Origin: Streptomyces sp. Ag109_O5-1
Lineage (GTDB): Bacteria; Actinomycetota; Actinomycetes; Streptomycetales; Streptomycetaceae
Assembly (NCBI RefSeq): GCF_003814875.1
Contig: NZ_RKQF01000001.1
Location: 2,418,001-2,482,000, forward strand
Length of the DNA stretch: 64,000 nucleotides
Direction: 5' to 3'
Of this stretch, positions 1 through 43,739 are shown in pieces. The notes below the pieces were generated by a model that was given only the letters and a program-made list of their open reading frames with translations, did not search any database and was not told the DNA's origin. How positions within the stretch are numbered: the stretch's first letter is position 1; each line of letters starts with the position of its first letter. The position numbers and the translations under genes are program-made.

Positions 1-1
1 G

Positions 2-872
2 GACGGCGCGGTGGTGCCGATCGGTGGGCCGGTGGCCAACACGCGTGTGTTCGTGCTGGATTCGGGGCTGTGCCCGGTTCCGGTGGGTGTGGCGGGTGAG
101 CTGTATGTGGCGGGTTCGCAGCTTGCGCGGGGGTATCTGGGTCGTGCGGGGTTGACGGCTGAGCGGTTTGTGGCGTGTCCGTTCGGACAGCCGGGTGAGC
201 GGATGTACCGGACCGGGGACCTGGTGCGCTGGACGGCCGACGGTGTGATGGAGTACGCCGGCCGGGTCGACGACCAGGTCAAGATCCGTGGGTTCCGGAT
301 CGAGCCGGGTGAGATCGAAGCCGTTCTGGCCGCGCACCGGCAGGTCGGGCAGGCCGCCGTGGTCGTGCGCGAGGACACCCCGGGCGACAAGCGCCTGGTC
401 GCCTACCTCGTCCCCCAAAGGGATGCCGTGTCAGAAGGCCGGGACGTGGCTGCGGATGTGCGGGCGTTTGTGGCGGAGCGGTTGCCGCAGTACATGGTGC
501 CCTCCGCGGTGGTGGTGCTGGAGGCGCTGCCGCTGACCGTGAACGGGAAGCTGGACCGCAGGGCGCTGCCCGCCCCCGACTACGCCACGGCCGCGGGTGC
601 GGGTGTGGGTGCGGGGCGGGGACCGGCCACTGTGCGTGAGGAGATCTTGTGCGCGGTGTTCGCCGACGTCCTCGGCCTGCCCTCGGTCGGGGTCGAGGAC
701 AACTTCTTCGACCTCGGCGGCCACTCACTGCTGGCAACCCGATTGGTGAGCCGGATCCGGTCGGTGCTGGGCGTGGAGATTGCGATCCGGGAGGTGTTCG
801 CCGCTCCCACGGTGGCCGGGATCGCGCGGCGGCTGGAGAGTGGTGGTGCTGCGCGGCCGGCGGTGGTGGCCG
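2..872 (+). other. NRPS module 1 remnant: A (C-terminal part)-PCP
   Basis: Only the A8-A10 part of the adenylation domain and its PCP are in the window; the PCP serine codon is TCA at 725-727. The specificity pocket lies upstream. The first bases, ahead of core A8, match the same place in the Ser-type module 5 (near 13099), where other modules differ. Serine is therefore a weak guess for this module. Confidence 0.8.
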
Positions 873-3800
873 GGGTGCGCCCACAGGTGGTGCCGTTGTC
901 CTTCGCGCAGCAGCGGGTGTGGTTCCTGGGCGAGTTGGAGGGGCTGAGCGCGACCTACAACATTCCGGTGATGCTGCGGATCAGTGGTGAGCTGGACCTC
1001 GCGGCGCTGCGGTTGGCGCTGCGTGATGTGGTCGAGCGGCACGAGAGCCTGCGTACGGTGTTCACCGCGGTGGACGGTCAGCCGTATCAGCGGATCATTT
1101 CCGACCCGAGCGCATACCCGCAGTTGACGGTGGTGGAGGCTACTGCCGAGGACCTGGACGGCCTGGACGGGCTGGTGGCGCGGGCGGCGGGGTATGCGTT
1201 CGATCTGTCGGTGGATTTGCCGTTGCGGGCGACGCTGCTGACGGTGGGGCCGGATGAGTATGTGCTGGTGCTGGTGTTGCATCACATCGCTGCGGATGGC
1301 TGGTCGTTGGTGCCGCTGGGGCGGGATCTGTCGACGGCGTACGCGGCACGGTGTGCGGGACGGGAGCCTGCGTGGCGGGCGCTGCCGGTGCAGTACGCGG
1401 ATTACACGCTGTGGCAGCGGGAGCTGCTGGGCGAGGCCGATGATCCGGACAGTGTGCTCGCGCGGCAGGTGACGTACTGGCGGGAGATGCTGGCGGGGGC
1501 ACCGGAGGAACTGGCCCTGCCACTGGACCGGCCGCGTCCGGCGGTGGCCAGCCACCGCGGCGGCAGCGCCGACGTGCGTATTCCGGCCGAGCTGCATACC
1601 CGCATGGTCGAGTTGGCGCGTGAGCAGGGCGTGACGATGTTCATGCTGCTCCAAGCCGCAGTGGCGGTGCTGCTGTCGCGACTGGGGGCGGGCCAGGACA
1701 TCCCGATCGGCAGCCCGGTCGCCGGGCGCACCGATGAGGCACTCGACGAACTCGTCGGGTTCTTCGTCAACACGCTGGTGCTGCGCACCGATGTGTCGGG
1801 GGATCCGTCGTTCGACGAACTGCTCGCCCGGGTTCGGGAGCGTGGCCTGGGTGCGTTGGAGCACCAGGACGTGCCGTTCGAGCGGCTGGTCGAAGAGCTG
1901 GCCCCCGCCCGCTCCACGGCCCGCCACCCGCTGTTCCAGGTCATGCTCGCTCTGCAGAACAACGCCGAGGCCCGTCTGGAGCTGCCCGGCCTGCACGTCG
2001 AGGAGTATCCGGGCGGCCGGCCGGCCGCGAAGTTCGATCTGGACTTCGAGTTCTTCGAAGAGTTCGCCACCGAGGGCGCACCGGCCGGCCTGGAAGGCGT
2101 GATCGTCTACGCGGCGGACCTGTTCGACCAGGCCAGTATGGACGTGATCGCCGAGCGGCTGGTGCGGGTGCTGGAAGCGGTCACCACCGACCCTGCCCGG
2201 CCGGTCAGCCGTATCCAGATCCTGGATGCCGGCGAGCAGCAGCGGATGCTGGTGGAGTGGAACGACACCACGCAGGACGTACCCGGGCTCACGGGTGCGA
2301 CGTTGCCGGGTCTGTTCGCGGCGCAGGTGGCTTGTACTCCGGATGCGGTCGCGGTGGTGTTCGAGGGTGTCCGGTTGTCGTATCGGGAGGTGGATGAGCG
2401 TTCCAGTCGGCTGGCGCGGCTGCTGATCGGCCGGGGTGTGGGGCCGGAGTCGCTGGTCGGGGTGCTGATGGAACGCTCCCCGGACCTGGTCGTCGCCCTG
2501 CTGGCCGTCCTCAAGGCCGGCGGCGCATACGTGCCGATCGATCCGGACTATCCGGTTGAGCGGATCGCCGGGACCCTGCACGACGCCGCACCGATAGCCG
2601 TACTGACCACCGCACAGATCGCCGGCCAGGTCGCCGAGCAGGTCGGTGCCGGATTCGGTGTGGGGACATGGGTGGTGGTGGATGATCCGCAGGTCCGGGC
2701 GGAGCTGGCCGGTCTGGATGGCGGTGCGGTCACCGACGGGGACCGTCGGGGCGCGCTGCTGCCCGACCACCCGGCGTATGTGATCTACACCTCCGGCTCC
2801 ACCGGCCGCCCCAAGGGAGTAGTGATCCAGCACGGGGCGCTGGCCAACTTGCTGGCCGCTATGGGTGATCACCTGGCCCTGAGCCCGGGGGACCGTCTGC
2901 TCGCCGTGACGACCGTGGCCTTCGACATCCATACCGTCGAGCTCTACGTGCCCTTGTTGTCTGGCGCAGCCGTGATCATTCCCGATCGGGACGCGATCCG
3001 GGACTCACTGGTCCTGGGCGCACTGATCGACCGCTCCGGCACCACGGTCATGCAGGCCACCCCGGCCTTGTGGCAGGCACTGGTTGCAGATGTGCCCGGG
3101 GCTTTGAGCGGACTTCGGGTACTCGTCGGAGGCGAGGCGCTGCCCGCCGCGCTGGCCGAGCGTCTGACCGAGCTGTCGGCGTCCGTCACCAACTTGTACG
3201 GTCCGACTGAGACCACAGTCTGGTCGACCATGGCCGAACTGCGTGCCGCTTCCGGCCGTTCGGTGCCGATCGGCCGATCGGTGTGGAACACGCGGACATA
3301 CGTCCTGGATGACGGCCTGTTGCCGGTTCCGGTGGGTGTGGCGGGTGAGCTGTACGTGGCCGGTGCGGGGTTGGCGCGTGGCTACCTGAACCGTGCGGGG
3401 TTGACGGCTGAGCGGTTTGTGGCGTGTCCGTTCGGACAGCCGGGTGAGCGGATGTACCGGACCGGGGACCTGGTGCGCTGGACGGCCGACGGTGTGATGG
3501 AGTACGCCGGCCGGGTCGACGACCAGGTCAAGATCCGTGGGTTCCGGATCGAGCCGGGTGAGATCGAAGCCGTTCTGGCCGCGCACCGGCAGGTCGGGCA
3601 GGCCGCCGTGGTCGTGCGCGAGGACACCCCGGGCGACAAGCGCCTGGTCGCCTACCTCGTCCCCCAAAGGGATGCCGTGTCAGAAGGCCGGGACGTGGCT
3701 GCGGATGTGCGGGCGTTTGTGGCGGAGCGGTTGCCGCAGTACATGGTGCCCTCCGCGGTGGTGGTGCTGGAGGCGCTGCCGCTGACCGTGAACGGGAAGC

Positions 3801-6800
3801 TGGACCGCAGGGCGCTGCCCGCCCCCGACTACGCCACGGCCGCGGGTGCGGGTGTGGGTGCGGGGCGGGGACCGGCCACTGTGCGTGAGGAGATCTTGTG
3901 CGCGGTGTTCGCCGACGTCCTCGGCCTGCCCTCGGTCGGGGTCGAGGACAACTTCTTCGACCTCGGCGGCCACTCACTGCTGGCAACCCGATTGGTGAGC
4001 CGGATCCGGTCGGTGCTGGGCGTGGAGATTGCGATCCGGGAGGTGTTCGCCGCTCCCACGGTGGCCGGGATCGCGCGGCGGCTGGAGAGTGGTGGTGCTG
4101 CGCGGCCGGCGGTGGTGGCCGGGGTGCGCCCACAGGTGGTGCCGTTGTCCTTCGCGCAGCAGCGGGTGTGGTTCCTGGGCGAGTTGGAGGGGCTGAGCGC
4201 GACCTACAACATTCCGGTGATGCTGCGGATCAGTGGTGAGCTGGACCTCGCGGCGCTGCGGTTGGCGCTGCGTGATGTGGTCGAGCGGCACGAGAGCCTG
4301 CGTACGGTGTTCACCGCGGTGGACGGTCAGCCGTATCAGCGGATCATTTCCGACCCGAGCGCATACCCGCAGTTGACGGTGGTGGAGGCTACTGCCGAGG
4401 ACCTGGACGGCCTGGACGGGCTGGTGGCGCGGGCGGCGGGGTATGCGTTCGATCTGTCGGTGGATTTGCCGTTGCGGGCGACGCTGCTGACGGTGGGGCC
4501 GGATGAGTATGTGCTGGTGCTGGTGTTGCATCACATCGCTGCGGATGGCTGGTCGTTGGTGCCGCTGGGGCGGGATCTGTCGACGGCGTACGCGGCACGG
4601 TGTGCGGGACGGGAGCCTGCGTGGCGGGCGCTGCCGGTGCAGTACGCGGATTACACGCTGTGGCAGCGGGAGCTGCTGGGCGAGGCCGATGATCCGGACA
4701 GTGTGCTCGCGCGGCAGGTGACGTACTGGCGGGAGATGCTGGCGGGGGCACCGGAGGAACTGGCCCTGCCACTGGACCGGCCGCGTCCGGCGGTGGCCAG
4801 CCACCGCGGCGGCAGCGCCGACGTGCGTATTCCGGCCGAGCTGCATACCCGCATGGTCGAGTTGGCGCGTGAGCAGGGCGTGACGATGTTCATGCTGCTC
4901 CAAGCCGCAGTGGCGGTGCTGCTGTCGCGACTGGGGGCGGGCCAGGACATCCCGATCGGCAGCCCGGTCGCCGGGCGCACCGATGAGGCACTCGACGAAC
5001 TCGTCGGGTTCTTCGTCAACACGCTGGTGCTGCGCACCGATGTGTCGGGGGATCCGTCGTTCGACGAACTGCTCGCCCGGGTTCGGGAGCGTGGCCTGGG
5101 TGCGTTGGAGCACCAGGACGTGCCGTTCGAGCGGCTGGTCGAAGAGCTGGCCCCCGCCCGCTCCACGGCCCGCCACCCGCTGTTCCAGGTCATGCTCGCT
5201 CTGCAGAACAACGCCGAGGCCCGTCTGGAGCTGCCCGGCCTGCACGTCGAGGAGTATCCGGGCGGCCGGCCGGCCGCGAAGTTCGATCTGGACTTCGAGT
5301 TCTTCGAAGAGTTCGCCACCGAGGGCGCACCGGCCGGCCTGGAAGGCGTGATCGTCTACGCGGCGGACCTGTTCGACCAGGCCAGTATGGACGTGATCGC
5401 CGAGCGGCTGGTGCGGGTGCTGGAAGCGGTCACCACCGACCCTGCCCGGCCGGTCAGCCGTATCCAGATCCTGGATGCCGGCGAGCAGCAGCGGATGCTG
5501 GTGGAGTGGAACGACACCACGCAGGACGTACCCGGGCTCACGGGTGCGACGTTGCCGGGTCTGTTCGCGGCGCAGGTGGCTTGTACTCCGGATGCGGTCG
5601 CGGTGGTGTTCGAGGGTGTCCGGTTGTCGTATCGGGAGGTGGATGAGCGTTCCAGTCGGCTGGCGCGGCTGCTGATCGGCCGGGGTGTGGGGCCGGAGTC
5701 GCTGGTCGGGGTGCTGATGGAACGCTCCCCGGACCTGGTCGTCGCCCTGCTGGCCGTCCTCAAGGCCGGCGGCGCATACGTGCCGATCGATCCGGACTAT
5801 CCGGTTGAGCGGATCGCCGGGACCCTGCACGACGCCGCACCGATAGCCGTACTGACCACCGCACAGATCGCCGGCCAGGTCGCCGAGCAGGTCGGTGCCG
5901 GATTCGGTGTGGGGACATGGGTGGTGGTGGATGATCCGCAGGTCCGGGCGGAGCTGGCCGGTCTGGATGGCGGTGCGGTCACCGACGGGGACCGTCGGGG
6001 CGCGCTGCTGCCCGACCACCCGGCGTATGTGATCTACACCTCCGGCTCCACCGGCCGCCCCAAGGGCGTGGCTGTCCCGCATGTGAATGTGGTGAGTCTG
6101 TTCGCGGGGACGGACGAGTGGTTCGGTTTTGGGGCCGATGATGTCTGGACGTGGTTCCACTCGTATGCGTTCGACTTCTCGGTGTGGGAGCTGTGGGGTG
6201 CGCTGCTGCACGGCGGGCGCCTGGTGGTGGTTCCCTTTGCAGTTTCCAGGGCGCCGCGGGAGTTCCTGGAGCTGCTGGTTCGGGAACGGGTGACCGTCCT
6301 CAACCAGACGCCGTCGGCGTTCTACCAGTTGATGCGGGCCGATGCGGAGCATCCGCGGCTGGGCGCGGAACTGGCCTTGCGGTCGGTGGTGTTCGGTGGT
6401 GAGGCGCTGGATCTTGGGCGGTTGCGGGGCTGGTACGAGCGCCATCGTGATGACGCTCCGGTTCTGGTGAACATGTACGGCATTACCGAAACCACGGTTC
6501 ACGTCAGCTACCTGGCGCTGGATGCAGCGATGGCCGGGGCAGGGCGTGCCGCCAGCCTGATCGGCAGGGGTATCCCGGGTCTGCGTACCTACGTGCTGGA
6601 TGACGGCCTGTTGCCGGTTCCGGTGGGTGTGGCGGGTGAGCTGTACGTGGCCGGTGCGGGGTTGGCGCGTGGCTACCTGAACCGTGCGGGGTTGACGGCT
6701 GAGCGGTTTGTGGCGTGTCCGTTCGGACAGCCGGGTGAGCGGATGTACCGGACCGGGGACCTGGTGCGCTGGACGGCCGACGGTGTGATGGAGTACGCCG

Positions 6801-9800
6801 GCCGGGTCGACGACCAGGTCAAGATCCGTGGGTTCCGGATCGAGCCGGGTGAGATCGAAGCCGTTCTGGCCGCGCACCGGCAGGTCGGGCAGGCCGCCGT
6901 GGTCGTGCGCGAGGACACCCCGGGCGACAAGCGCCTGGTCGCCTACCTCGTCCCCCAAAGGGATGCCGTGTCAGAAGGCCGGGACGTGGCTGCGGATGTG
7001 CGGGCGTTTGTGGCGGAGCGGTTGCCGCAGTACATGGTGCCCTCCGCGGTGGTGGTGCTGGAGGCGCTGCCGCTGACCGTGAACGGGAAGCTGGACCGCA
7101 GGGCGCTGCCCGCCCCCGACTACGCCACGGCCGCGGGTGCGGGTGTGGGTGCGGGGCGGGGACCGGCCACTGTGCGTGAGGAGATCTTGTGCGCGGTGTT
7201 CGCCGACGTCCTCGGCCTGCCCTCGGTCGGGGTCGAGGACAACTTCTTCGACCTCGGCGGCCACTCACTGCTGGCGGTGACGTTGGTGGAGCGGTTGCGG
7301 GCGCGGGGCGTGTCGGTGGATGTGCGCACGCTGTTCTCCTCGCCCACACCGGCGCGGCTGGCCGCGACCGCGGGTCGGGAGGAGGTGGTGGTGCCGCCGT
7401 GCCTGGTGCCCGAGGACGCGGACGCGATCCTGCCGGAGATGGTGCCGTTGTCCGGACTGTCCGAGCGGGAGCTGGCCCGGGTCGTGGCGGGTGTACCCGG
7501 CGGCGCGGCCGGCGTGCAGGACGTCTACCCGCTGGCACCGCTGCAGGAGGGCCTGTTCTTCCACCACCGGTTGGAGGCTGCGGACGGACAGGATCCGTAT
7601 GTGCTGCGGATGCTGCTGCGGTTCGACTCGCGGGCGCGGTTGGATGCGTTCACGGGCGTGTTGCAGAACGTCATCGACCGCCACGACGTCCTGCGGACCT
7701 CGATCGCGTGGGAGGGGCTGGACCGGCCGGTACAGGTGGTCCACCGTCAGGCCGTGCTGCCGGTCACCGAGATCGACCTCGGCGCCGGGGTCGCTGGCGA
7801 GGACGCGGTTCGGGTGCTGCAGGCCGCGTGCGAGGGGCCGCTGGACCTGCGCCGGGCGCCGCTGATGGACGCCCACATCGCGGCCGAACCCGGTAACGGC
7901 CGGTGGCTGATGATGCTGCGGATGCACCACCTCATCGATGACAACACCTCGCTGAAGGTGGTGCTGGGTGAGGTGCTGGCCTTCATGGAGGGACGTGGGG
8001 AGCGGCTGCCGATCCCGTTGCCGTACCGGAACTTCGTCGGGCAGGCGCTGCTGGGCGTCTCGCGTGAGGAGCACGCGGCGTACTTCGCGGGGTTGCTCGG
8101 TGAGGTGACCGAGCCGACCGCGCCCTTCGGTCTGCTGGACGTGCACGGGGATGGCCGGGACGTGGGCGAGGCCCACGCGGTGGTGGACGCCGGGTTGGCG
8201 CTGCGGGTGCGGGAGCAGGCCCGCCGGTTCGGCGTGAGCCCCGCCACGGTGTTCCATGTGGTGTGGTCGCGGGTGCTGGCCGTGGTCTCGGGCCGTGAGG
8301 ATGTGGTGTTCGGCACGGTGCTGTTCGGCCGGATGCAGGCCGGCGTCGGCGCGGACCGGCTGCCGGGGCTGTTCGTCAACACCCTGCCCGTGCGGGTGCG
8401 CACCGGTGGAGTCGGTGTGCTGGACGCCCTGCGGTCGATGCAGGCGCAACTGGCCGAGCTCATGGTGCACGAACACGCCACGCTGACGGTGGCGCAGCAG
8501 GCCAGTGGCGTAGCCGCGGCGACCCCACTGATCACCACGCTGTTCAACTACCGCCGGGCCGAGAACACCGAGGACCCGGCCGGCACCGGGCCCGAGGGAA
8601 CTGAGCTCCTGCTCTTCGCGGAGCGGACCAACTACCCGCTCGGGCTGTCGGTGGACGACTTCGGCACCGGCTCCCGCGGCGGGTTCGGACTCTCGGTGCA
8701 AGCAGTGGCACCGATCAACCCAGAGCTGGTCGCCGGGCTGCTTCAGACGGCGACCGAAGGCGTGGTGGCAGCACTAGAGGAAGCCCCGGACCGCACACTG
8801 AACCGTATCCAGATCCTGGATGCCGGCGAGCAGCAGCGGATGCTGGTGGAGTGGAACGACACCACGCAGGACGTACCCGGGCTCACGGGTGCGACGTTGC
8901 CGGGTCTGTTCGCGGCGCAGGTGGCTTGTACTCCGGATGCGGTCGCGGTGGTGTTCGAGGGTGTCCGGTTGTCGTATCGGGAGGTGGATGAGCGTTCCAG
9001 TCGGCTGGCGCGGCTGCTGATCGGCCGGGGTGTGGGGCCGGAGTCGCTGGTCGGGGTGCTGATGGAACGCTCCCCGGACCTGGTCGTCGCCCTGCTGGCC
9101 GTCCTCAAGGCCGGCGGCGCATACGTGCCGATCGATCCGGACTATCCGGTTGAGCGGATCGCCGGGACCCTGCACGACGCCGCACCGATAGCCGTACTGA
9201 CCACCGCACAGATCGCCGGCCAGGTCGCCGAGCAGGTCGGTGCCGGATTCGGTGTGGGGACATGGGTGGTGGTGGATGATCCGCAGGTCCGGGCGGAGCT
9301 GGCCGGTCTGGATGGCGGTGCGGTCACCGACGGGGACCGTCGGGGCGCGCTGCTGCCCGACCACCCGGCGTATGTGATCTACACCTCCGGCTCCACCGGC
9401 CGCCCCAAGGGAGTAGTGATCCAGCATCACGCGGTGACGCACTTTACCGCGAGCATCGCAGCGGCCTACACGATCAACGAGCACACGCGTCTGCTGGGCT
9501 TCGCAGCGTTCACCTTCGATGTGTCCGTCTTCGAACTGTTCACCGCCCTGACCACCGGCGCAACGCTCGTTCTCGCCTCAGCCAACGACCGGATCAGCGC
9601 CAGCCGACTGCAGGCACTCCTGGCAGAGCAGGAAGTGGCTGTGGCGGAACTGCCCCCGGCGCTGATGCCGATGCTACGCCCCGAGGAACTCCCTGCCTTG
9701 CGGCTGGTCTCCGTCGGAGGCGAGGCGCCGGCCGGAATTCTGGTCGATCAGTGGGCCACCGAGGAGCGCGAGTTCTGGAACGGCTACGGTCCCACCGAAG

Positions 9801-12800
9801 CCGCTGTAGCGGTCACCTTGATGCGCTGCCTTCCGCCGTCCGAAGGCCAGACACCGCCGATCGGTGGGCCGGTGGCCAACACGCGTGTGTTCGTGCTGGA
9901 TTCGGGGCTGTGCCCGGTTCCGGTGGGTGTGGCGGGTGAGCTGTATGTGGCGGGTTCGCAGCTTGCGCGGGGGTATCTGGGTCGTGCGGGGTTGACGGCT
10001 GAGCGGTTTGTGGCGTGTCCGTTCGGACAGCCGGGTGAGCGGATGTACCGGACCGGGGACCTGGTGCGCTGGACGGCCGACGGTGTGATGGAGTACGCCG
10101 GCCGGGTCGACGACCAGGTCAAGATCCGTGGGTTCCGGATCGAGCCGGGTGAGATCGAAGCCGTTCTGGCCGCGCACCGGCAGGTCGGGCAGGCCGCCGT
10201 GGTCGTGCGCGAGGACACCCCGGGCGACAAGCGCCTGGTCGCCTACCTCGTCCCCCAAAGGGATGCCGTGTCAGAAGGCCGGGACGTGGCTGCGGATGTG
10301 CGGGCGTTTGTGGCGGAGCGGTTGCCGCAGTACATGGTGCCCTCCGCGGTGGTGGTGCTGGAGGCGCTGCCGCTGACCGTGAACGGGAAGCTGGACCGCA
10401 GGGCGCTGCCCGCCCCCGACTACGCCACGGCCGCGGGTGCGGGTGTGGGTGCGGGGCGGGGACCGGCCACTGTGCGTGAGGAGATCTTGTGCGCGGTGTT
10501 CGCCGACGTCCTCGGCCTGCCCTCGGTCGGGGTCGAGGACAACTTCTTCGACCTCGGCGGCCACTCACTGCTGGCAACCCGATTGGTGAGCCGGATCCGG
10601 TCGGTGCTGGGCGTGGAGATTGCGATCCGGGAGGTGTTCGCCGCTCCCACGGTGGCCGGGATCGCGCGGCGGCTGGAGAGTGGTGGTGCTGCGCGGCCGG
10701 CGGTGGTGGCCGGGGTGCGCCCACAGGTGGTGCCGTTGTCCTTCGCGCAGCAGCGGGTGTGGTTCCTGGGCGAGTTGGAGGGGCTGAGCGCGACCTACAA
10801 CATTCCGGTGATGCTGCGGATCAGTGGTGAGCTGGACCTCGCGGCGCTGCGGTTGGCGCTGCGTGATGTGGTCGAGCGGCACGAGAGCCTGCGTACGGTG
10901 TTCACCGCGGTGGACGGTCAGCCGTATCAGCGGATCATTTCCGACCCGAGCGCATACCCGCAGTTGACGGTGGTGGAGGCTACTGCCGAGGACCTGGACG
11001 GCCTGGACGGGCTGGTGGCGCGGGCGGCGGGGTATGCGTTCGATCTGTCGGTGGATTTGCCGTTGCGGGCGACGCTGCTGACGGTGGGGCCGGATGAGTA
11101 TGTGCTGGTGCTGGTGTTGCATCACATCGCTGCGGATGGCTGGTCGTTGGTGCCGCTGGGGCGGGATCTGTCGACGGCGTACGCGGCACGGTGTGCGGGA
11201 CGGGAGCCTGCGTGGCGGGCGCTGCCGGTGCAGTACGCGGATTACACGCTGTGGCAGCGGGAGCTGCTGGGCGAGGCCGATGATCCGGACAGTGTGCTCG
11301 CGCGGCAGGTGACGTACTGGCGGGAGATGCTGGCGGGGGCACCGGAGGAACTGGCCCTGCCACTGGACCGGCCGCGTCCGGCGGTGGCCAGCCACCGCGG
11401 CGGCAGCGCCGACGTGCGTATTCCGGCCGAGCTGCATACCCGCATGGTCGAGTTGGCGCGTGAGCAGGGCGTGACGATGTTCATGCTGCTCCAAGCCGCA
11501 GTGGCGGTGCTGCTGTCGCGACTGGGGGCGGGCCAGGACATCCCGATCGGCAGCCCGGTCGCCGGGCGCACCGATGAGGCACTCGACGAACTCGTCGGGT
11601 TCTTCGTCAACACGCTGGTGCTGCGCACCGATGTGTCGGGGGATCCGTCGTTCGACGAACTGCTCGCCCGGGTTCGGGAGCGTGGCCTGGGTGCGTTGGA
11701 GCACCAGGACGTGCCGTTCGAGCGGCTGGTCGAAGAGCTGGCCCCCGCCCGCTCCACGGCCCGCCACCCGCTGTTCCAGGTCATGCTCGCTCTGCAGAAC
11801 AACGCCGAGGCCCGTCTGGAGCTGCCCGGCCTGCACGTCGAGGAGTATCCGGGCGGCCGGCCGGCCGCGAAGTTCGATCTGGACTTCGAGTTCTTCGAAG
11901 AGTTCGCCACCGAGGGCGCACCGGCCGGCCTGGAAGGCGTGATCGTCTACGCGGCGGACCTGTTCGACCAGGCCAGTATGGACGTGATCGCCGAGCGGCT
12001 GGTGCGGGTGCTGGAAGCGGTCACCACCGACCCTGCCCGGCCGGTCAGCCGTATCCAGATCCTGGATGCCGGCGAGCAGCAGCGGATGCTGGTGGAGTGG
12101 AACGACACCACGCAGGACGTACCCGGGCTCACGGGTGCGACGTTGCCGGGTCTGTTCGCGGCGCAGGTGGCTTGTACTCCGGATGCGGTCGCGGTGGTGT
12201 TCGAGGGTGTCCGGTTGTCGTATCGGGAGGTGGATGAGCGTTCCAGTCGGCTGGCGCGGCTGCTGATCGGCCGGGGTGTGGGGCCGGAGTCGCTGGTCGG
12301 GGTGCTGATGGAACGCTCCCCGGACCTGGTCGTCGCCCTGCTGGCCGTCCTCAAGGCCGGCGGCGCATACGTGCCGATCGATCCGGACTATCCGGTTGAG
12401 CGGATCGCCGGGACCCTGCACGACGCCGCACCGATAGCCGTACTGACCACCGCACAGATCGCCGGCCAGGTCGCCGAGCAGGTCGGTGCCGGATTCGGTG
12501 TGGGGACATGGGTGGTGGTGGATGATCCGCAGGTCCGGGCGGAGCTGGCCGGTCTGGATGGCGGTGCGGTCACCGACGGGGACCGTCGGGGCGCGCTGCT
12601 GCCCGACCACCCGGCGTATGTGATCTACACCTCCGGCTCCACCGGCCGCCCCAAGGGCGTGGCTGTCCCGCATGCGGGGATCGTGAACCGCTTGGCGTGG
12701 ATGCAGGAGTTGTCCCCGTTGGGTTCGGGGGATCGGGTGCTGCAGAAGACGCCGTTCGGGTTCGACGTCAGTGTGTGGGAGTTCTTCTGGCCGTTGTCGG

Positions 12801-13987
12801 AGGGTGCGGCGCTGGTGGTGGCGCGTCCGGGTGGGCATCGGGATCCGGGGTATCTGGCGGCGTTGATCCAGGGCGAGTCTGTGACGGTGGCGCATTTCGT
12901 GCCGTCGATGTTGCAGGCGTTCGTTGCGGAGCCGGCTGCTGGTGGGTGTGCGGGGTTGCGGGCGGTGTTCTGTAGTGGTGAGGCGTTGCCGGCGTCACTG
13001 CGGGATGAGTTCCTGGGTCTGCTGGATGTGCCGTTGTTCAATCTGTACGGGCCTACTGAGGCGTCGGTGGAGGTGACGGCGGCGCGGTGTGTGGTGTCGG
13101 ACGGCGCGGTGGTGCCGATCGGTGGGCCGGTGGCCAACACGCGTGTGTTCGTGCTGGATTCGGGGCTGTGCCCGGTGCCGGTGGGTGTGGCGGGTGAGCT
13201 GTACATCGCTGGCGTCCAGTTGGCGCGTGGCTACCTGAACCGTGCGGGGTTGACGGCTGAGCGGTTTGTGGCGTGTCCGTTCGGACAGCCGGGTGAGCGG
13301 ATGTACCGGACCGGGGACCTGGTGCGCTGGACGGCCGACGGTGTGATGGAGTACGCCGGCCGGGTCGACGACCAGGTCAAGATCCGTGGGTTCCGGATCG
13401 AGCCGGGTGAGATCGAAGCCGTTCTGGCCGCGCACCGGCAGGTCGGGCAGGCCGCCGTGGTCGTGCGCGAGGACACCCCGGGCGACAAGCGCCTGGTCGC
13501 CTACCTCGTCCCCCAAAGGGATGCCGTGTCAGAAGGCCGGGACGTGGCTGCGGATGTGCGGGCGTTTGTGGCGGAGCGGTTGCCGCAGTACATGGTGCCC
13601 TCCGCGGTGGTGGTGCTGGAGGCGCTGCCGCTGACCGTGAACGGGAAGCTGGACCGCAGGGCGCTGCCCGCCCCCGACTACGCCACGGCCGCGGGTGCGG
13701 GTGTGGGTGCGGGGCGGGGACCGGCCACTGTGCGTGAGGAGATCTTGTGCGCGGTGTTCGCCGACGTCCTCGGCCTGCCCTCGGTCGGGGTCGAGGACAA
13801 CTTCTTCGACCTCGGCGGCCACTCACTGCTGGCAACCCGATTGGTCAGCCGGATCCGGTCGGTCCTCGGCGTGGAAGTGCCGATCCGCGAAGTGTTCACC
13901 GCACCGACCGTCGCCGGGATCGCTGGCCGTCTTGACTTCACACAGCGCGTTCGCCCCGCGCTTCGCCGTATATCGCACTCCGAGTAA
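2..13987 (+). CDS. Nonribosomal peptide synthetase, modules 1(partial)-5
   Basis: A cytoplasmic multimodular enzyme that activates amino acids as adenylates, loads them on 4'-phosphopantetheine arms and joins them. The frame is open at the left edge, so the gene starts upstream; about 4,660 residues are visible. Domain order: C-terminal part of an A domain, PCP, then C-A-PCP, C-A-PCP, dual-type C-A-PCP, C-A-PCP. Visible motifs are YTSGSTG (A3), GELY and YRTGDL (A7-A8), NGKLDRR (A10 Lys), LGGHSL (PCP Ser, codon TCA in every module) and HHxxxDG in the ordinary C domains. There is no thioesterase or epimerase domain; the protein ends just after the fifth PCP with a short tail that may be a docking segment. 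The next synthetase starts 10 bp downstream. Outside the specificity regions the modules look identical at DNA level. NRPS assignment is certain; substrates are inferred. Confidence 0.97.
143..2817 (+). repeat. NRPS scaffold repeat, copy 1
   Basis: A 2,675 bp block from core A8 of one module, through PCP and C domain, to core A3 of the next. It looks identical to 3392-6066 (offset 3249) and 9856-12657 (offset 9840; that match extends left to base 16). Identity stops abruptly at the lysine codon after CCCAAGGG of core A3, where the specificity region begins. Confidence 0.85.
873..4121 (+). other. NRPS module 2 (C-A-PCP), predicted glycine
   Basis: The condensation domain runs about 888-2190 (HHIAADG at 1280), adenylation about 2303-3818, and PCP about 3870-4090 (Ser at 3974). 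Aligning core A4-A5 by eye with GrsA gives pocket residues D-I-V-Q-L-G-L-V-W-K. The published Gly code is DILQLGLIWK, so three positions differ, all conservatively. Glycine is an inference from this code, not a measured activity. Confidence 0.75.
3392..6066 (+). repeat. NRPS scaffold repeat, copy 2
   Basis: The second copy of the 2,675 bp block, between the specificity regions of module 2 (Gly) and module 3 (Thr). Both edges fall at the same codons as in copy 1. Confidence 0.85.
4122..7400 (+). other. NRPS module 3 (C-A-PCP), predicted threonine
   Basis: The condensation domain (about 4137-5440) looks identical to that of module 2. The adenylation pocket reads D-F-W-N-V-G-M-V-H-K, one conservative change from the Thr code DFWNIGMVHK. 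The PCP Ser is at 7265. The second half of the PCP differs from its sisters because the sequence switches there into the dual-type condensation domain of module 4. The residue loaded here would be turned to the D form by that next domain if the dual assignment is right. Confidence 0.8.
6596..7934 (+). repeat. A8-PCP-dual C repeat, copy 1
   Basis: About 1,339 bp that look identical to 19566-20904 (offset 12970). The block covers the end of the A domain, the PCP and the N-terminal half of the dual-type C domain. It ends inside the second His motif; after that the two dual C domains are only similar. Confidence 0.8.
7401..10712 (+). other. NRPS module 4 (dual-type C-A-PCP), substrate unresolved
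   Basis: The condensation domain (about 7430-8810) begins with [13 protein letters not shown], an extended His motif typical of dual condensation/epimerization domains, and has HHLIDDNTS in place of HHxxxDG. The upstream residue would be epimerized before coupling. The adenylation pocket reads D-V-F-E-S-G-G-V-A-K, which I cannot match to a known code. Glu at position 278 would suit a basic or hydrogen-bonding side chain, but that is speculation. The PCP Ser is at 10565. Confidence 0.7.
9856..12657 (+). repeat. NRPS scaffold repeat, copy 3
   Basis: A 2,802 bp block matching bases 16-2817 line by line at offset 9840. It joins the specificity regions of module 4 and module 5. Confidence 0.85.
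10713..13987 (+). other. NRPS module 5 (C-A-PCP), predicted serine
   Basis: The condensation domain (about 10728-12050) is a copy of the ordinary C domain of modules 2 and 3. The adenylation pocket reads D-V-W-H-F-S-L-V-E-K; the Ser code is DVWHFSLVDK, so only position 331 differs (Glu for Asp). The FCSGEAL segment matches EntF-type Ser domains. The PCP Ser is at 13823, and this is the last module of the first protein. Confidence 0.8.
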
Positions 13988-13997
13988 GGATACTGTC

Positions 13998-23716
<9,719 letters not shown>

Positions 23717-23717
<1 letters not shown>

Positions 23718-23811: not shown

Positions 23812-23906
23812 GTACAGATGCAAGCACACCACTGGTAAGCTTGACTCTGTCGGTGATCTTGGTGGGTTCGGGCTGACGAGCGTAGTCGGTGGGCAGCCTC
23901 GTGACG

Positions 23907-24210
23907 ATGGTGCAGGCTGACCCACTGGCGAGGTGCACGTTGTCCGTCCGTCCCCGTTCCGGTGAACAGGTTCCCACTCTGACTGCGCGGGTGGCGCGGG
24001 CGAGTAATCCGACCGGGACGACGGTGATGTGGGTACGGGATCGCTTGGACGGCCTGTGGCATGACGAGGACTTCGCCGACTGGTATCCGCGCGACGGACG
24101 CCCAGGCCCGTCACCTGCCCAATTGGCCACGGTGAGTGTGCTGCAGTTCCTGCTGGGCTTGTCTGACCGTGACGCGGCGGAGGCGGTGCGGTGCCGTATC
24201 GACTTCAAGT
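23907..24210 (+). pseudogene. IS1182-family transposase, N-terminal fragment
   Basis: About 100 residues resembling the start of IS1182-family transposases: an RPRSGEQVP-TARVARA opening, WVRDRLDGLW-DEDFADWYP, then QLATVSVLQFLLGLSDRDAAEAVRCRIDFK. The DDE catalytic part is missing. The frame is left exactly where a GTGCG sequence, the usual group II intron 5' boundary, starts at 24211. It is not functional. Confidence 0.65.
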
Positions 24211-24653
24211 GTGCGCCGTTTCACTCGGCGCTGGATCGCTCCCGCAAGGAGCCGGGGCTCGGAAGGAGGTGGCCTCGGGGCTGCCCGCCTTACCTGGACG
24301 CGAAAGCGCGAGGGGACCACAGCATGGCGGGAAAGCACGGAGGGTTGCGAAGGCATCGAAGACCCTGCCGTGCGAGGCCCGCGTGATAAGGCGAAGGCCA
24401 TACTGCTTGAAGCCGAGTCTCCGGAGACGCAAGTCGTACGTCCTGCGACAGGATGCCTGTAGTCGCAGCCACCGGTATCGGACGGTCCTATTTGAGCCGT
24501 CTCAACCCTTCCGGCCGGTGGGCAGCGGGCAGCGAGCCCGCCCAAGGGGACGGACAGGCCGCCTACGTCACGCTCGATACGTCCAGCGCAAGGGGAATGC
24601 GGGATCGCCTACGGGGCGCGAGTCCTATGGCGACGGAGTGCCCGTAGTAGTCG
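24211..24653 (+). mobile_element. Group II intron-like 5' fragment 1
   Basis: Non-coding, starts with GTGCG, and contains motifs typical of ribozyme domains ahead of the intron reverse transcriptase: many GAAA loops and the run GCGAGTCCTATGGCGACGG followed by GTAGTAGTC. It aligns over its length with 24654-25120. No reverse transcriptase frame, domain V or 3' end is present. Group II identity is inferred from these motifs without a covariance search. Confidence 0.55.
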
Positions 24654-25120: not shown

Positions 25121-26669
25121 GTACTACAGCCGGAGATCTTGAGGATCAGTGATCGGTGGGATCGGTCGGTGGCGTTCCCAGGGCAGCAGGTGCGGCGGTA
25201 GTGGGTCGCCGCGACGTCGGTAGTGGCTGACCATGGCCCGGGTCTGGTGCAGACGGCGCCACAACTCGCAGGTCAGGACGGTCTCGACGGGGTGGCGGTG
25301 GTTGAGGCGTGTGGAGGCCAGGCAGTGCCGGATGGTGTGGACGGAGGGCCGCAGGAGCGGGCCGGGGATCAGCCGGTGGCCCTGCTCTCGCTCGTGTCCT
25401 GGTCTTTTCCCTGGTCAGGAGCTGGGTCCTGGTCGGGTTCGGGGAGGGCGGCATGTTGGACGGCGAGGAACGCGGTGGCCAGCATGCAGGCAGTGACATG
25501 CCGGTGCCAGGGAGTCCACTTGCGCACCTGGTACTGGGCCAGGCCGACGAGCTGCTTGTTGATCTCGTTGTCGTCCTCGATCTGCCAGCGGCCGCCGGCC
25601 CGCGCGATGATCTGGGAGATTGTGGTGTCCGCCGGAGCGTGGACGAGGAAGTAGGCGATCTCACGGTGGAGTTGGCCGTCCTTCCCGCGCCGGTTGGGGT
25701 GTAGCGATCTGCGGAGCACGAGCCAGTGGGTGAAGTCCTCGGCCGGGGCCTCGTCCTTCACGCTCACGGCGAAGGCCGTCCAGTCGTAGAGCCGTTCGCC
25801 CTTGGACCCCTCGCCGCACGAGCGGCGTTCCCACTGGTTGCGGACCTTGGCGCAGTGGAGCAGGTCATCGGCGCGTTTCACCGCGGGGTGGCGGGGTTTG
25901 CCGGGCGGGCCGTCAAGGGGCAGGTCGACGGGGACGCCGAGTATGTAGGGCACTGCTTGTTCGTGACACCAGGCCCGCAGCTGCGGGTCGCGGCCGTAGC
26001 CGGCATCGGCCAGCACCCAGGTGAACGGGACACGGGCCGCGACAGCCTGCTCCAGCATGTCGATGGCCAGTTCGGGCTTGGTCGCGAAGGCGACCTCGTC
26101 GGGGACACCGGCCTGGCGGCACCGCTCGCGGTCGTCGGTCCACTCCTCCGGCAGGTACAGGCGGCGGTCGATGAAGGTGTGTCCGGCGGCGGTGGCGTAG
26201 GTGAGCATCACCATGGTCTGGCAGTTGCGGACATCACCGGTCAGCCCGCAGTGCTGGAAGGCCACCCCGACCGATTTCGTGCCCTTCTTCTGGGCCTGGG
26301 TGTCATCGATGACCAGGGAAGCGTCCGCATGCCCCAGATGTTCCACGACGTAGTCGCGGACTGCGTCACGCAGCCGGTCCGCCTCCCACACCGAGCCGTT
26401 GAGCAGCCACTGCATCCGGTCCGCGGTCACATGCCCGGCCCGCTCCGACAGCGTCCACCCGTTCTTCCTCGGCAGCTCCGCCAACAACCCCTCGATGAAC
26501 TGCGCGAACACCAACCGCGGCTCCGGCCGGTTGAACAAGAACCCCAACGACCCAGTTAGCACGGACAGTTCAGCATCCCACTCGGCTATCTGCTCAGCCG
26601 TCACACCCAGCATCATGCCCGGTCAACGACGCGCTGCAGAACCCGTCACAAGATCTCCGGCTGTAGTAC
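25121..26669. mobile_element. Complete IS701-family insertion sequence
   Basis: 1,549 bp bounded by perfect 21 bp inverted repeats at 25121-25141 and 26649-26669 (outer bases GTACTACAGCCGGAG). The flanking four bases differ (CTGG left, CAAG right), so there is no target duplication. The left neighbour is intron-like DNA and the right neighbour is an SDR fragment, which fits a deletion or recombination next to the element. Confidence 0.9.
25369..26616 (-). CDS. IS701-family transposase
   Basis: 415 residues, full length for the family. Acidic catalytic residues are visible in SLVIDDTQAQKKG, TWVLADAGYG and GGRWQIE, the DDE layout of IS701 (SRSO17/DDE_5) transposases. It acts on the inverted repeats that flank it. 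The frame has no stops or shifts, so it may still be active. The C-terminal tail is rich in Asp, Pro and Gln. The start is one of two adjacent ATG codons. Confidence 0.95.
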   Translation of the reverse strand: MMLGVTAEQIAEWDAELSVLTGSLGFLFNRPEPRLVFAQFIEGLLAELPRKNGWTLSERAGHVTADRMQWLLNGSVWEADRLRDAVRDYVVEHLGHADASLVIDDTQAQKKGTKSVGVAFQHCGLTGDVRNCQTMVMLTYATAAGHTFIDRRLYLPEEWTDDRERCRQAGVPDEVAFATKPELAIDMLEQAVAARVPFTWVLADAGYGRDPQLRAWCHEQAVPYILGVPVDLPLDGPPGKPRHPAVKRADDLLHCAKVRNQWERRSCGEGSKGERLYDWTAFAVSVKDEAPAEDFTHWLVLRRSLHPNRRGKDGQLHREIAYFLVHAPADTTISQIIARAGGRWQIEDDNEINKQLVGLAQYQVRKWTPWHRHVTACMLATAFLAVQHAALPEPDQDPAPDQGKDQDTSESRATG

Positions 26670-42332: not shown

Positions 42333-43703
42333 TCACCGTGAGAGGCGCCGGTCCGCCCGGCCGGTGTGCAGGTACTGGGCGTGGCCCGCGCCGTCGTCGC
42401 CGACGAACGTGTGCGGCACGTGCACGCCCGCCTCGGCCTGGGCGGCGAGCAGGGTGTCGCCGCGCAGGTGGAGCAGCTCGTAACGCTGCGGCGTCATCCC
42501 CAGCCCCATGGCGACTGGGGTCGGCTTCTGGTCCACCCAGATGCGGCCCTCGGCGTCCTGGCTGACCGTGCTCTCGGCCATGCGGGAGGCGTACGTGCCG
42601 ACGTACCGCGAGGCGTCCACGCGGCGGGGTTCAGCCGACGGCACCGGGTACCTCGGCACGGTCACGCCCGCGAGCTCTCCCAGGATGTGCCCGAAGACGG
42701 TCTCGAACACCGGGATCACCTCACCACCGTTGGTGAGCAGCGCCACCGCCACACCCCGCTCAGGCACCGCCCGCAGGAAGGCACGCTGACCGATGGTGCC
42801 GCCGTCATGGCCGACCACACGGCCCCCCTGCCAGTCGAACAACTCCCAGCCAAGCCCCCAGGACGTGTCCGTGCCCAGGTACGGTACATCCACCTGGGGT
42901 TCCTGCATCGCCCGCACGCTCGCCGCGCTCAGCGCGCGGTGGCCCGGGGCCATGTGCAACCGGGCGAAGGAGATCAGGTCGCGTGGGCTCATGGCCAGCA
43001 TGGCACCGGCGGCCACGTTGGACCGGGTGATGGCCCAGACGGGCGCCGGCTGCGGCTCGGCCTCCGGTCCGGCGCTGAGGTGGCCGACGGCGGCACGGTG
43101 CAGGATCGCCTCGTAGGGGCTCGCCGCGGCGTGCTCCAGACCCAGCGGCGCGAAGAGATGGCGGCGCAGGCAGTCGTCGTACGACGCGCCACGCAACACC
43201 TCGGCGATGCGGCCCAAGACGCAGTAACCCGCGTTGTTGTACGAGAACATCTCCCCCGGTGCGAACAGCTGAGGCACATCGGCGAGGGTGGCCACATACT
43301 TCTCCACACAGTCGTCGCCGACGCCGGTGTCCGTGAAGATGTCGCCCTCGAATCCCGCGGTGTGGGCCAGCAGTTGGCGTACGGTGATTGCCGTCGCTGC
43401 GGCAGAGTCGGCCAGCACGAACTCGGGCAGGTAACGGCGCACCGGAGCGTCGAGATCGAGTCGGCCTTCGTCGACGAGCTGCATGACCAGGGTGGCTGTC
43501 CAGACCTTGGTAATAGAGCCGATCTGGAACACCGAGTCAGCAGTCGCCGCCACGCCGGTCACCCTGTTCAGCACGCCAGCGGCGAAGTCGACCACTTCAT
43601 CTCCAACGCACACTGCGACGGCCGCGCCCGGAACTCGGTGCTCGGCCAACAGTCCCGGCAGGCTCGACCGGATCCAAGTCTCGATATCCTTCAGGTTCGC
43701 CAT
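42333..43703 (-). CDS. S12-family serine hydrolase (D-aminopeptidase/beta-lactamase-like)
   Basis: 456 residues. ATG 43703 is preferred over TTG 43718 because GGAG lies 9 bp ahead. The penicillin-binding fold catalytic residues are S63-I-T-K66 and Y155-N-N157, with HDGGTIG in place of the KTG box. A C-terminal beta-rich domain (from about 340) resembles the lipocalin-like extension of D-aminopeptidases and some esterases. No signal peptide is seen, so it is probably cytoplasmic. HDG instead of KTG argues against a classical beta-lactamase and fits D-aminopeptidase, esterase or amidase members. It converges with the CocE-type gene and lies beside the D-to-L amino acid genes, so a D-residue-releasing peptidase is an attractive inference. 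Confidence 0.85.
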   Translation of the reverse strand: MANLKDIETWIRSSLPGLLAEHRVPGAAVAVCVGDEVVDFAAGVLNRVTGVAATADSVFQIGSITKVWTATLVMQLVDEGRLDLDAPVRRYLPEFVLADSAAATAITVRQLLAHTAGFEGDIFTDTGVGDDCVEKYVATLADVPQLFAPGEMFSYNNAGYCVLGRIAEVLRGASYDDCLRRHLFAPLGLEHAAASPYEAILHRAAVGHLSAGPEAEPQPAPVWAITRSNVAAGAMLAMSPRDLISFARLHMAPGHRALSAASVRAMQEPQVDVPYLGTDTSWGLGWELFDWQGGRVVGHDGGTIGQRAFLRAVPERGVAVALLTNGGEVIPVFETVFGHILGELAGVTVPRYPVPSAEPRRVDASRYVGTYASRMAESTVSQDAEGRIWVDQKPTPVAMGLGMTPQRYELLHLRGDTLLAAQAEAGVHVPHTFVGDDGAGHAQYLHTGRADRRLSR

Positions 43704-43739
43704 GAGGGAGCACTCCAAGCAGGAACTCTTACGGGTTAC

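Follow-up and report, generated by a model that had tools for sequence, protein, structure and literature searches.

Divergent adenylation pockets in near-identical module scaffolds of a Streptomyces nonribosomal peptide synthetase

The 64,000-nucleotide stretch of Streptomyces sp. Ag109_O5-1 DNA analyzed here (the window; positions 2418001-2482000 of contig 1) opens within a nonribosomal peptide synthetase (NRPS) that we refer to as line A. Its two genes, both open across their whole length, encode eight modules (M1-M8), each comprising condensation (C), adenylation (A), and thiolation (T) domains, and span -2341 to 23717 (26.06 kb; array coordinates are given on a scale where 0 precedes 1). 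The scaffold of the first seven modules is largely identical from copy to copy, and the segments that set amino acid choice stand within it as islands of difference. A second, giant NRPS of the same genome (line B) shows a nearly opposite arrangement.

Self-comparison of line A yielded 31 direct exact repeats (150 bp or more, up to 2934 bp) that together account for 73.3% of the array. An initial annotation, made from the DNA letters alone, had reported blocks of about 2.7 kb that were identical base for base in three places, and alignment bears this out: scaffolds S1, S2, and S4 (Table 1) share 2675 bp with zero mismatches in three copies, and S1 and S4 match without a mismatch across 2802 bp. 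Nor are substitutions scattered through the blocks, as all 32 mismatches between S1 and S2 lie within 25-142 and the next 2675 bp contain none. The pattern is larger than first described, taking in the whole array and a 2934-bp match between M6 and M7. A 593-bp segment, from between core motifs A6 and A7 through the T domain, is identical in seven modules, and the segment from A8 to T is 100% identical among modules 1-7. Module 8, the internal control of line A, is 65% alike in this segment with an insertion counted, or 75%-79% in aligned pieces.

Identity is nonetheless interrupted at more places than the pocket, and the earlier statement that everything except the pocket had been homogenized was too broad. 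With seven units cut from A8 to A8 and aligned, stretches at 100% alternate with stretches mostly at 20%-60% and some at 60%-90%. Modules 2, 3, 5, and 7 carry one and the same C domain from end to end, and C6 joins them from 14111 onward; C4 and C8 form a second type, exact in its first part and 57%-90% alike in the remainder. The N-terminal halves (N-halves) of the A domains are likewise of one type in modules 1-5 and another in modules 6 and 7, and the junction between the two genes and module 8 differ as well.

The block edges fall next to conserved A-domain motifs. On the A3 side, blocks stop at the end of the PKG tripeptide and are followed by one of two short alleles (M1/M3/M5 versus M2/M4). 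S1 ends at 2817, on the second position of the Gly codon directly after the A3 lysine codon, in keeping with the lysine edge initially annotated. The opposite edge had been placed just before A8. This describes the triple-copy block, which begins at 143, with A7 (206) 63 bp and A8 (260) 117 bp further on, but it fails as a general rule, since pairs with a common A5-A7 allele extend to 16 or 3299, between A5 and A6. On this side, M2, M3, M6, and M7 carry one allele and M1 and M4 another, and M5 is a mosaic. Repeats in line A start 244, 210-204, 139, and 117 bp before A8; among 39 repeat starts between A5 and 200 bp past A8 in control NRPS stretches (described below), 10 lie 250-200 bp and 17 lie 150-100 bp before A8. 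Repeat copies are non-independent, so these counts, and the pocket-touch counts that follow, are descriptive.

We read specificity codes from our own alignment and assigned amino acid names to them tentatively. The codes of modules 2, 3, 5, and 6/7 would specify Gly, Thr, Ser, and Val, respectively. Line A pockets are 53.7%-60.5% alike, with the exception of M6/M7 and of the Ser/Ser pair M1/M5, in which 12137-13050 (module 5) is an exact copy of -961 to -48 (module 1), 914 bp of the A core. M1 and M5 were scored as having different codes because their last code residue differs, and they are the sole exception among 27 different-code pairs, 26 of which have pockets less than 75% alike. With edges at A3 and A5-A7, these pocket breaks fall where A-core exchange would place them. 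The segment from A8 to T in the same pairs reaches at least 98% identity in 20 of 27, and the other seven all involve module 8.

The alleles flanking the pockets demonstrate recombination between modules. All four combinations of left and right flank alleles are present among M1-M4—a four-gamete pattern—which requires at least one recombination among them, across the pocket. M1 and M4, with pockets 57% alike, have a right-flank allele in common, and M2 and M4, with pockets also 57% alike, have a left-flank allele in common. The M1/M4 right-flank allele and its alternative are distinguished by 20 of 91 positions (S1 versus S6), close to the divergence of module 8; hence the block edges look as though they retain older divergence.

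To gauge how unusual line A is, we took as controls 60 other 20-kb NRPS stretches, each from a different genome. These were chosen from larger contigs with the best scaffold matches and are therefore a non-random sample; in the source survey, one candidate per genome was scored and 28 of 392 genomes went unscored. Exact repeats cover 0.81 of window positions 1-20000, as against a control median of 0 and maximum of 0.326, so the extent of identity goes beyond chance and the usual likeness among NRPSs. Exact repeats of at least 150 bp do occur in 27 of the 60 control stretches. We also placed repeats at random within each locus, with 300 placements for line A. Four of 39 unique repeat intervals in line A touch the pocket core, compared with 20.2 expected, and none of the 300 placements gave a count as low.

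Table 1. Features of line A and location of line B
Feature	Position	Strand	Remarks
First synthetase, modules 1-5 (C-A-T each), 5442 amino acids (aa)	window part 1..13987	+	start -2341 (L009:11659), 2.3 kb before window
Second synthetase, modules 6-8	13998..23717	+	start uncertain: GTG 13998 or TTG 13932; open frame from 13695
Scaffold S1: from between A6 and A7 of module 1, T1, C2, A2 up to A3	143..2817	+	exact = 3392-6066 = 9983-12657
Module 2 pocket and right flank	2818..3298	+	code DIVQLGLVW
Scaffold S2	3392..6066	+	exact copy of S1
Module 3 pocket and right flank	6084..6595	+	code DFWNVGMVH
A5/A6 linker to T3 and first part of C4	6596..7934	+	exact copy (1339 bp) of 19566-20904
Remainder of C4 (second C type), not common to C2-type domains	7935..8802	+	57%-90% to C8, 100-column windows
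A4 N-half up to A3	8803..9411	+	exact = 5458-6066 = 12049-12657; to 9426 also = 2209-2832
Module 4 pocket	9427..9855	+	code DVFESGGVA, no substrate assigned
Scaffold S4	9983..12657	+	exact copy of S1; S1/S4 pair reaches back to 9856 = 16
Module 5 pocket and right flank	12658..13218	+	code DVWHFSLVE
A6-to-T5 block	13219..13845	+	exact in modules 2 and 6; from 13241 also 1 and 4; to 13833 also 3 and 7
Difference island at junction of the two synthetase genes	13846..14110	+	flanked on both sides by exact common blocks
C6-A6-T6 stretch	14111..17044	+	exact copy (2934 bp) of 17312-20245; tandem duplicate of a module with its pocket
Module 6 A N-half and pocket	15383..16323	+	code DAYWWGGTF; identical in module 7 at 18584-19524
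C7-A7-T7 stretch	17312..20245	+	exact copy of 14111-17044
Unconverted end: A8 domain (code DAATTAAVC) and T8	21861..23717	+
Giant NRPS (line B)	contig 1, 5041123-5148890 (L064-L070)	-	five genes: 9651, 6463, 10866, 4341, 4680 aa

Line B comprises about 36,000 aa with 33 A domains and contains 145 exact repeats of at least 150 bp. Of its A domains, 31 were identified by motif; B18 and B24, which the motif search missed, were added by hand and given one code label. Of 34 same-code pairs, 33 have pockets alike at 98% or more (median 100%), a level that none of 494 different-code pairs reaches; B3, probably also Thr, was scored as a different code, and scoring it as the same would give 33 of 36. 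Across same-code pairs, median identity is 92.7% in the A8-to-T segment and 53.9% in the following C domain. The 33 pockets fall into 16 cassettes, and 27 of the 33 modules have a pocket partner at 98% or above. For the A N-half, the nearest neighbor of a module is such a partner in 25 of 27 cases; the count is 19 of 26 when the A8-to-T segment is compared and drops to 2 of 22 for the C domain that follows, which suggests that the travelling unit is the pocket with its A N-half, often more, without the next C domain. Measured back from the end of A3, shared tracts start at 62-70 bp in 14 of 34 pairs, at 105 bp in a single pair, and at 527-1154 bp in 18; the pair B6/B26 has no tract. With near-identical pockets beside unrelated following C domains, line B is nearly a mirror image of line A. 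This suggests that pocket-bearing cassettes have spread in this genome, although conversion among modules with equal specificity would give a similar picture. Signs of both exchange and homogenization can be seen in this genome.

The initial annotation had proposed tracing the pockets to donors, and we ran such searches for the pockets of modules 3 and 4 only; no donor emerged. Among the matches listed from 392 genomes of the genus, its own included, with two candidates per genome scored, the best for the module 3 pocket is 78%, and the best in line B is 73%. For the module 4 pocket, the best long match listed from 100 genomes (up to six candidates each) is 69%, with higher identity confined to short pieces. 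No orthologous line was found via the first C domain in the 392 genomes of the genus or via the module 4 pocket in the 100 genomes. Genome G109, which is 74% alike over the first C domain, was rejected as an orthologue, having another module spacing and repeated stretches just 66%-73% alike. Scaffold matches listed in other genomes of the genus do not exceed 76%, over approximately 970 bp (one candidate per genome, 364 of 392 scored). In a collection of 84,980 species, from which close records may be left out, the best match to the first C domain has 42% protein identity. A plasmid collection queried with window positions 8000-16000 returned 130 matching records; among the 20 listed, query coverage is 48% for one record, at 73.5%, and at most 21% for the rest. 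A phage collection queried with window positions 1-8000 gave no match.

Repeats in polyketide synthase (PKS) genes can take the form of genetic repeats of intense nucleotide skews (GRINS), and we measured skew in line A accordingly. Under the operational criteria of PMC9899208, applied with ungapped identity in place of gapped alignment, five of the six duplicated regions of line A qualify, the exception being 14069-20998 with 0.134 GC. No duplicated windows occur in flanking DNA, and its mean absolute skews of 0.107-0.109 and 0.145-0.147 put the TA threshold barely above flanking noise. PMC10394414 describes GRINS as having GC and TA skews above 25%, and the duplicated regions fall short of this (mean signed skews 0.12-0.18 GC and 0.15-0.20 TA). 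Both skews exceed 0.25 only in the two Ser pockets among the blocks measured (0.35-0.36 and 0.46).

Given how close the operational threshold lies to flanking noise, we examined four-fold degenerate sites as well. GC/TA skew at these sites in line A is 0.35/0.41 in repeats, each counted once, and 0.15/0.16 in unique parts; the corresponding values in line B are 0.56/0.84 and 0.35/0.40, and twelve flanking genes give -0.18 and -0.01. The Ser pockets are extreme, at about 0.85 for GC and TA alike, and outside them the skew of line A is modest. The Thr pocket (6084-6582) is single-copy in line A yet skewed (0.47/0.67), unlike the pockets of module 8, module 4, and Gly, the latter two having slightly negative GC skew; a strict repeat rule for skew therefore does not fit.

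Skewed repeats extend to other NRPS loci. Of the 60 control stretches, 31 were dropped for having fewer than 60 repeat codons, and 29 remained; one of the 60 had less than 6 kb of NRPS frame. Absolute skew is greater in repeats than in unique parts in 26 of these 29 for GC (median 0.51 versus 0.09, Wilcoxon P 5e-8) and in 26 of 29 for TA (0.89 versus 0.18, P 1e-7). Skew is positive in 24 of the 29 stretches for GC and in 23 for TA, meaning mostly coding-strand G/T. Three stretches (L109, L111, and L124) show strong skew of the opposite sign in both measures (coding-strand C/A), in DNA whose translation reads as C domain. The notion that loci with more repeats are more skewed did not hold up between loci (n=23; rho 0.28, P 0.19 for GC; rho 0.38, P 0.07 for TA; 21 controls alone, rho 0.08 and 0.29), and the link between repeats and skew appears to hold within loci. 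For 23 of the 29 loci, on contigs above 6 Mb, we also counted replication direction: GC skew is positive in 15 of 16 co-directional and five of seven head-on loci, with one (L130) at 0.00. The origin was merely assumed to lie mid-contig, and we draw no inference on replication direction.

Several neighboring features touch on how line A might begin and end. Pfam lists no thioesterase in the scanned parts of the synthetases (window 2-13984 and 13695-23714), so line A may have lost its end or may rely on a separate release enzyme. Transposase pieces lie downstream of the second synthetase at 23889-24386 (DUF772) and 25369-26616 (DDE_5). Upstream of line A, on the opposite strand, are ketoacyl synthase and KAS III genes (L009:5343-7845) that perhaps supply an acyl starter. 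The beta-lactamase family includes stand-alone peptide cyclases, and a protein of this family (PF00144) is encoded at 42333-43718. Its link to line A is doubtful, given that it lies 18.6 kb away, beyond a set of peptide-transport and peptidase genes.

We consider it probable that recent homologous recombination between modules—gene conversion together with at least one unequal crossover or duplication, which would have given M6/M7—made M1-M7 largely identical. Exchange tracts would end close to two seams that bracket the pocket, one at the A3 motif and one in the A5-A7 region, and the pocket would be a cassette separable from a scaffold made up of the C-terminal part of the A domain, T, C, and the A N-half. 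On the simplest view, pocket, C-domain type, and gene junction stay different because copying over them would alter or break the product. Selection would then act as the filter and RecA-type recombination as the machinery. Between S1 and S2, divergence steps from 32 differences (25-142) to none over 2675 bp, as at a tract end. Homogenization of older modules is favored by the diverged edge alleles beside unrelated pockets, by exact blocks on both sides of the gene junction, and by the second C type being alike only in part. We infer from these features that conversion, rather than amplification, was the main cause of the pattern in line A.

The main rival holds that one module was recently amplified and then received different pockets by natural A-subdomain exchange, so that youth would explain the identity of the scaffold, and the pockets would derive from other modules or clusters. 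In its favor, published natural exchanges mostly affect the A core (PMC8097286), line B cassettes appear to have moved, M6/M7 is a simple tandem duplicate, and the A cores of M1 and M5 share their 914-bp exact copy. Against this, donor flanks alone do not explain the edges, because diverged right-flank alleles (20 differences in 91 bp) are common to unrelated pockets; extra replacements would be required, within the same short time, to account for the gene junction, the two C types, and both kinds of A N-half; and no donor of the module 3 or module 4 pocket was seen among the matches listed. We regard this alternative as rather unlikely.

Several observations count against homogenization by conversion as we have framed it. 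Amplification followed by pocket insertion gives nearly the same picture, and zero divergence does not separate the two; a sister-strain line that would allow concerted evolution to be compared directly was not found in the genomes searched. Pockets are not spared in line B, where 61 of 242 repeat intervals touch the pocket core (53.7 expected), or in 23 control loci, where 32 of 161 do so (33.9 expected). This rules out a general sparing of pockets by NRPS repeats and makes sparing special to line A. The mirror image is also imperfect. In line B the pocket is accompanied by its A N-half and often by the A8-to-T segment, tracts end on the right anywhere from 89 bp before A8 to 576 bp past it, later than in line A, and scaffolds are not homogenized, with none of 463 different-code pairs reaching 98% in the A8-to-T segment. 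The initial annotation had offered exchange or gene conversion as explanations. That the pocket is separable by recombination stands, given the four flank combinations, the low pocket-touch count in line A, and line B; homogenization fits line A better than subdomain exchange, but the choice between them is not proven.

An assembly or polishing artifact, in which short-read correction collapsed diverged modules, is very improbable. Exact repeats of up to 2.9 kb are hard to assemble, but the assembly comprises 12.0 Mb in 3 contigs with completeness 100, both genes are open throughout, sharp unconverted islands and module 8 persist beside exact blocks, line B retains graded divergence between modules, and exact repeats recur at lower coverage in the 27 control stretches from other genomes. 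Strong selection on the repeated DNA sequence without recombination, which the skewed synonymous sites might suggest, is scarcely credible, as module 8 performs the same functions with ordinary divergence, identity ends abruptly within coding sequence, and scaffold matches listed elsewhere in the genus are as distant as noted above.

The kind of phenomenon seen in line A is known, and its degree is extreme. A-core exchange, concerted evolution, and GRINS are established in sources that bear on them (PMC8097286, PMC9205934, PMC9899208, PMC10394414, PMC4256081, PMC7486941, PMC11907408, PMC11915812). Natural A-core (subdomain) exchange has been described for microcystin, iturinic lipopeptides, and hormaomycin (PMC8097286). 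In these systems, as in line A, the unit consists of the substrate-binding portion of the A domain, with boundaries among the core motifs, and the C-A linker and A C-terminal subdomain remain with the scaffold; they represent single events, however, whereas line A has pocket islands in the largely copy-identical scaffold of seven modules. The wollamide/desotamide NRPS resembles line A in its duplicated high-identity DNA, drop in the A domain, and shared nucleotide skew, but wolG1 and wolG2 are one duplicated gene at 80.9% (PMC9205934) and the scaffolds of line A are 100% identical for kilobases in a single array. PMC4256081, on concerted evolution in NRPS and PKS clusters, singles out the syringopeptin NRPS and the mycolactone PKS as extreme cases. 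Modules of a given line are found there to be more alike than expected, and internal recombination and duplication are invoked, as for line A. That source concerns domain similarity between and within many clusters, whereas line A offers exact DNA within one line and no sister cluster. GRINS share with line A duplicated stretches inside assembly-line genes and elevated GC and TA skew; their descriptions come from PKSs and PKS-NRPS hybrids, whereas line A is an NRPS. A review names NRPSs together with PKSs for skew and gene conversion (PMC11915812). Our literature search combining GRINS, nonribosomal, and skew returned no title on NRPS genes, which is no proof that the matter is unpublished. 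Nivina (2021) is said to mention other gene families.

These findings allow a broader idea that we put forward tentatively and hold to be unlikely as it stands: that elements of the GRINS type act as a general engine of recombination in both NRPSs and PKSs. Rounds of copying would recode repeats, mostly toward coding-strand G/T, and the seams around the A pocket would let the engine unify scaffolds and leave pockets, as in line A, or spread pockets, as in line B. R-loops or a similar transcription-linked process would, speculatively, fit the mostly coding-strand sign of the skew. The two lines place near-reciprocal outcomes of exchange in one genome, one scaffold with many pockets and few pockets with many C domains. 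They provide a natural, DNA-level guide to where A domains may be cut and joined—near A3 and from A5 to about A8—of the sort that NRPS engineering needs. The link between repeats and skew in 26 of 29 control stretches makes the GRINS idea testable outside PKSs.

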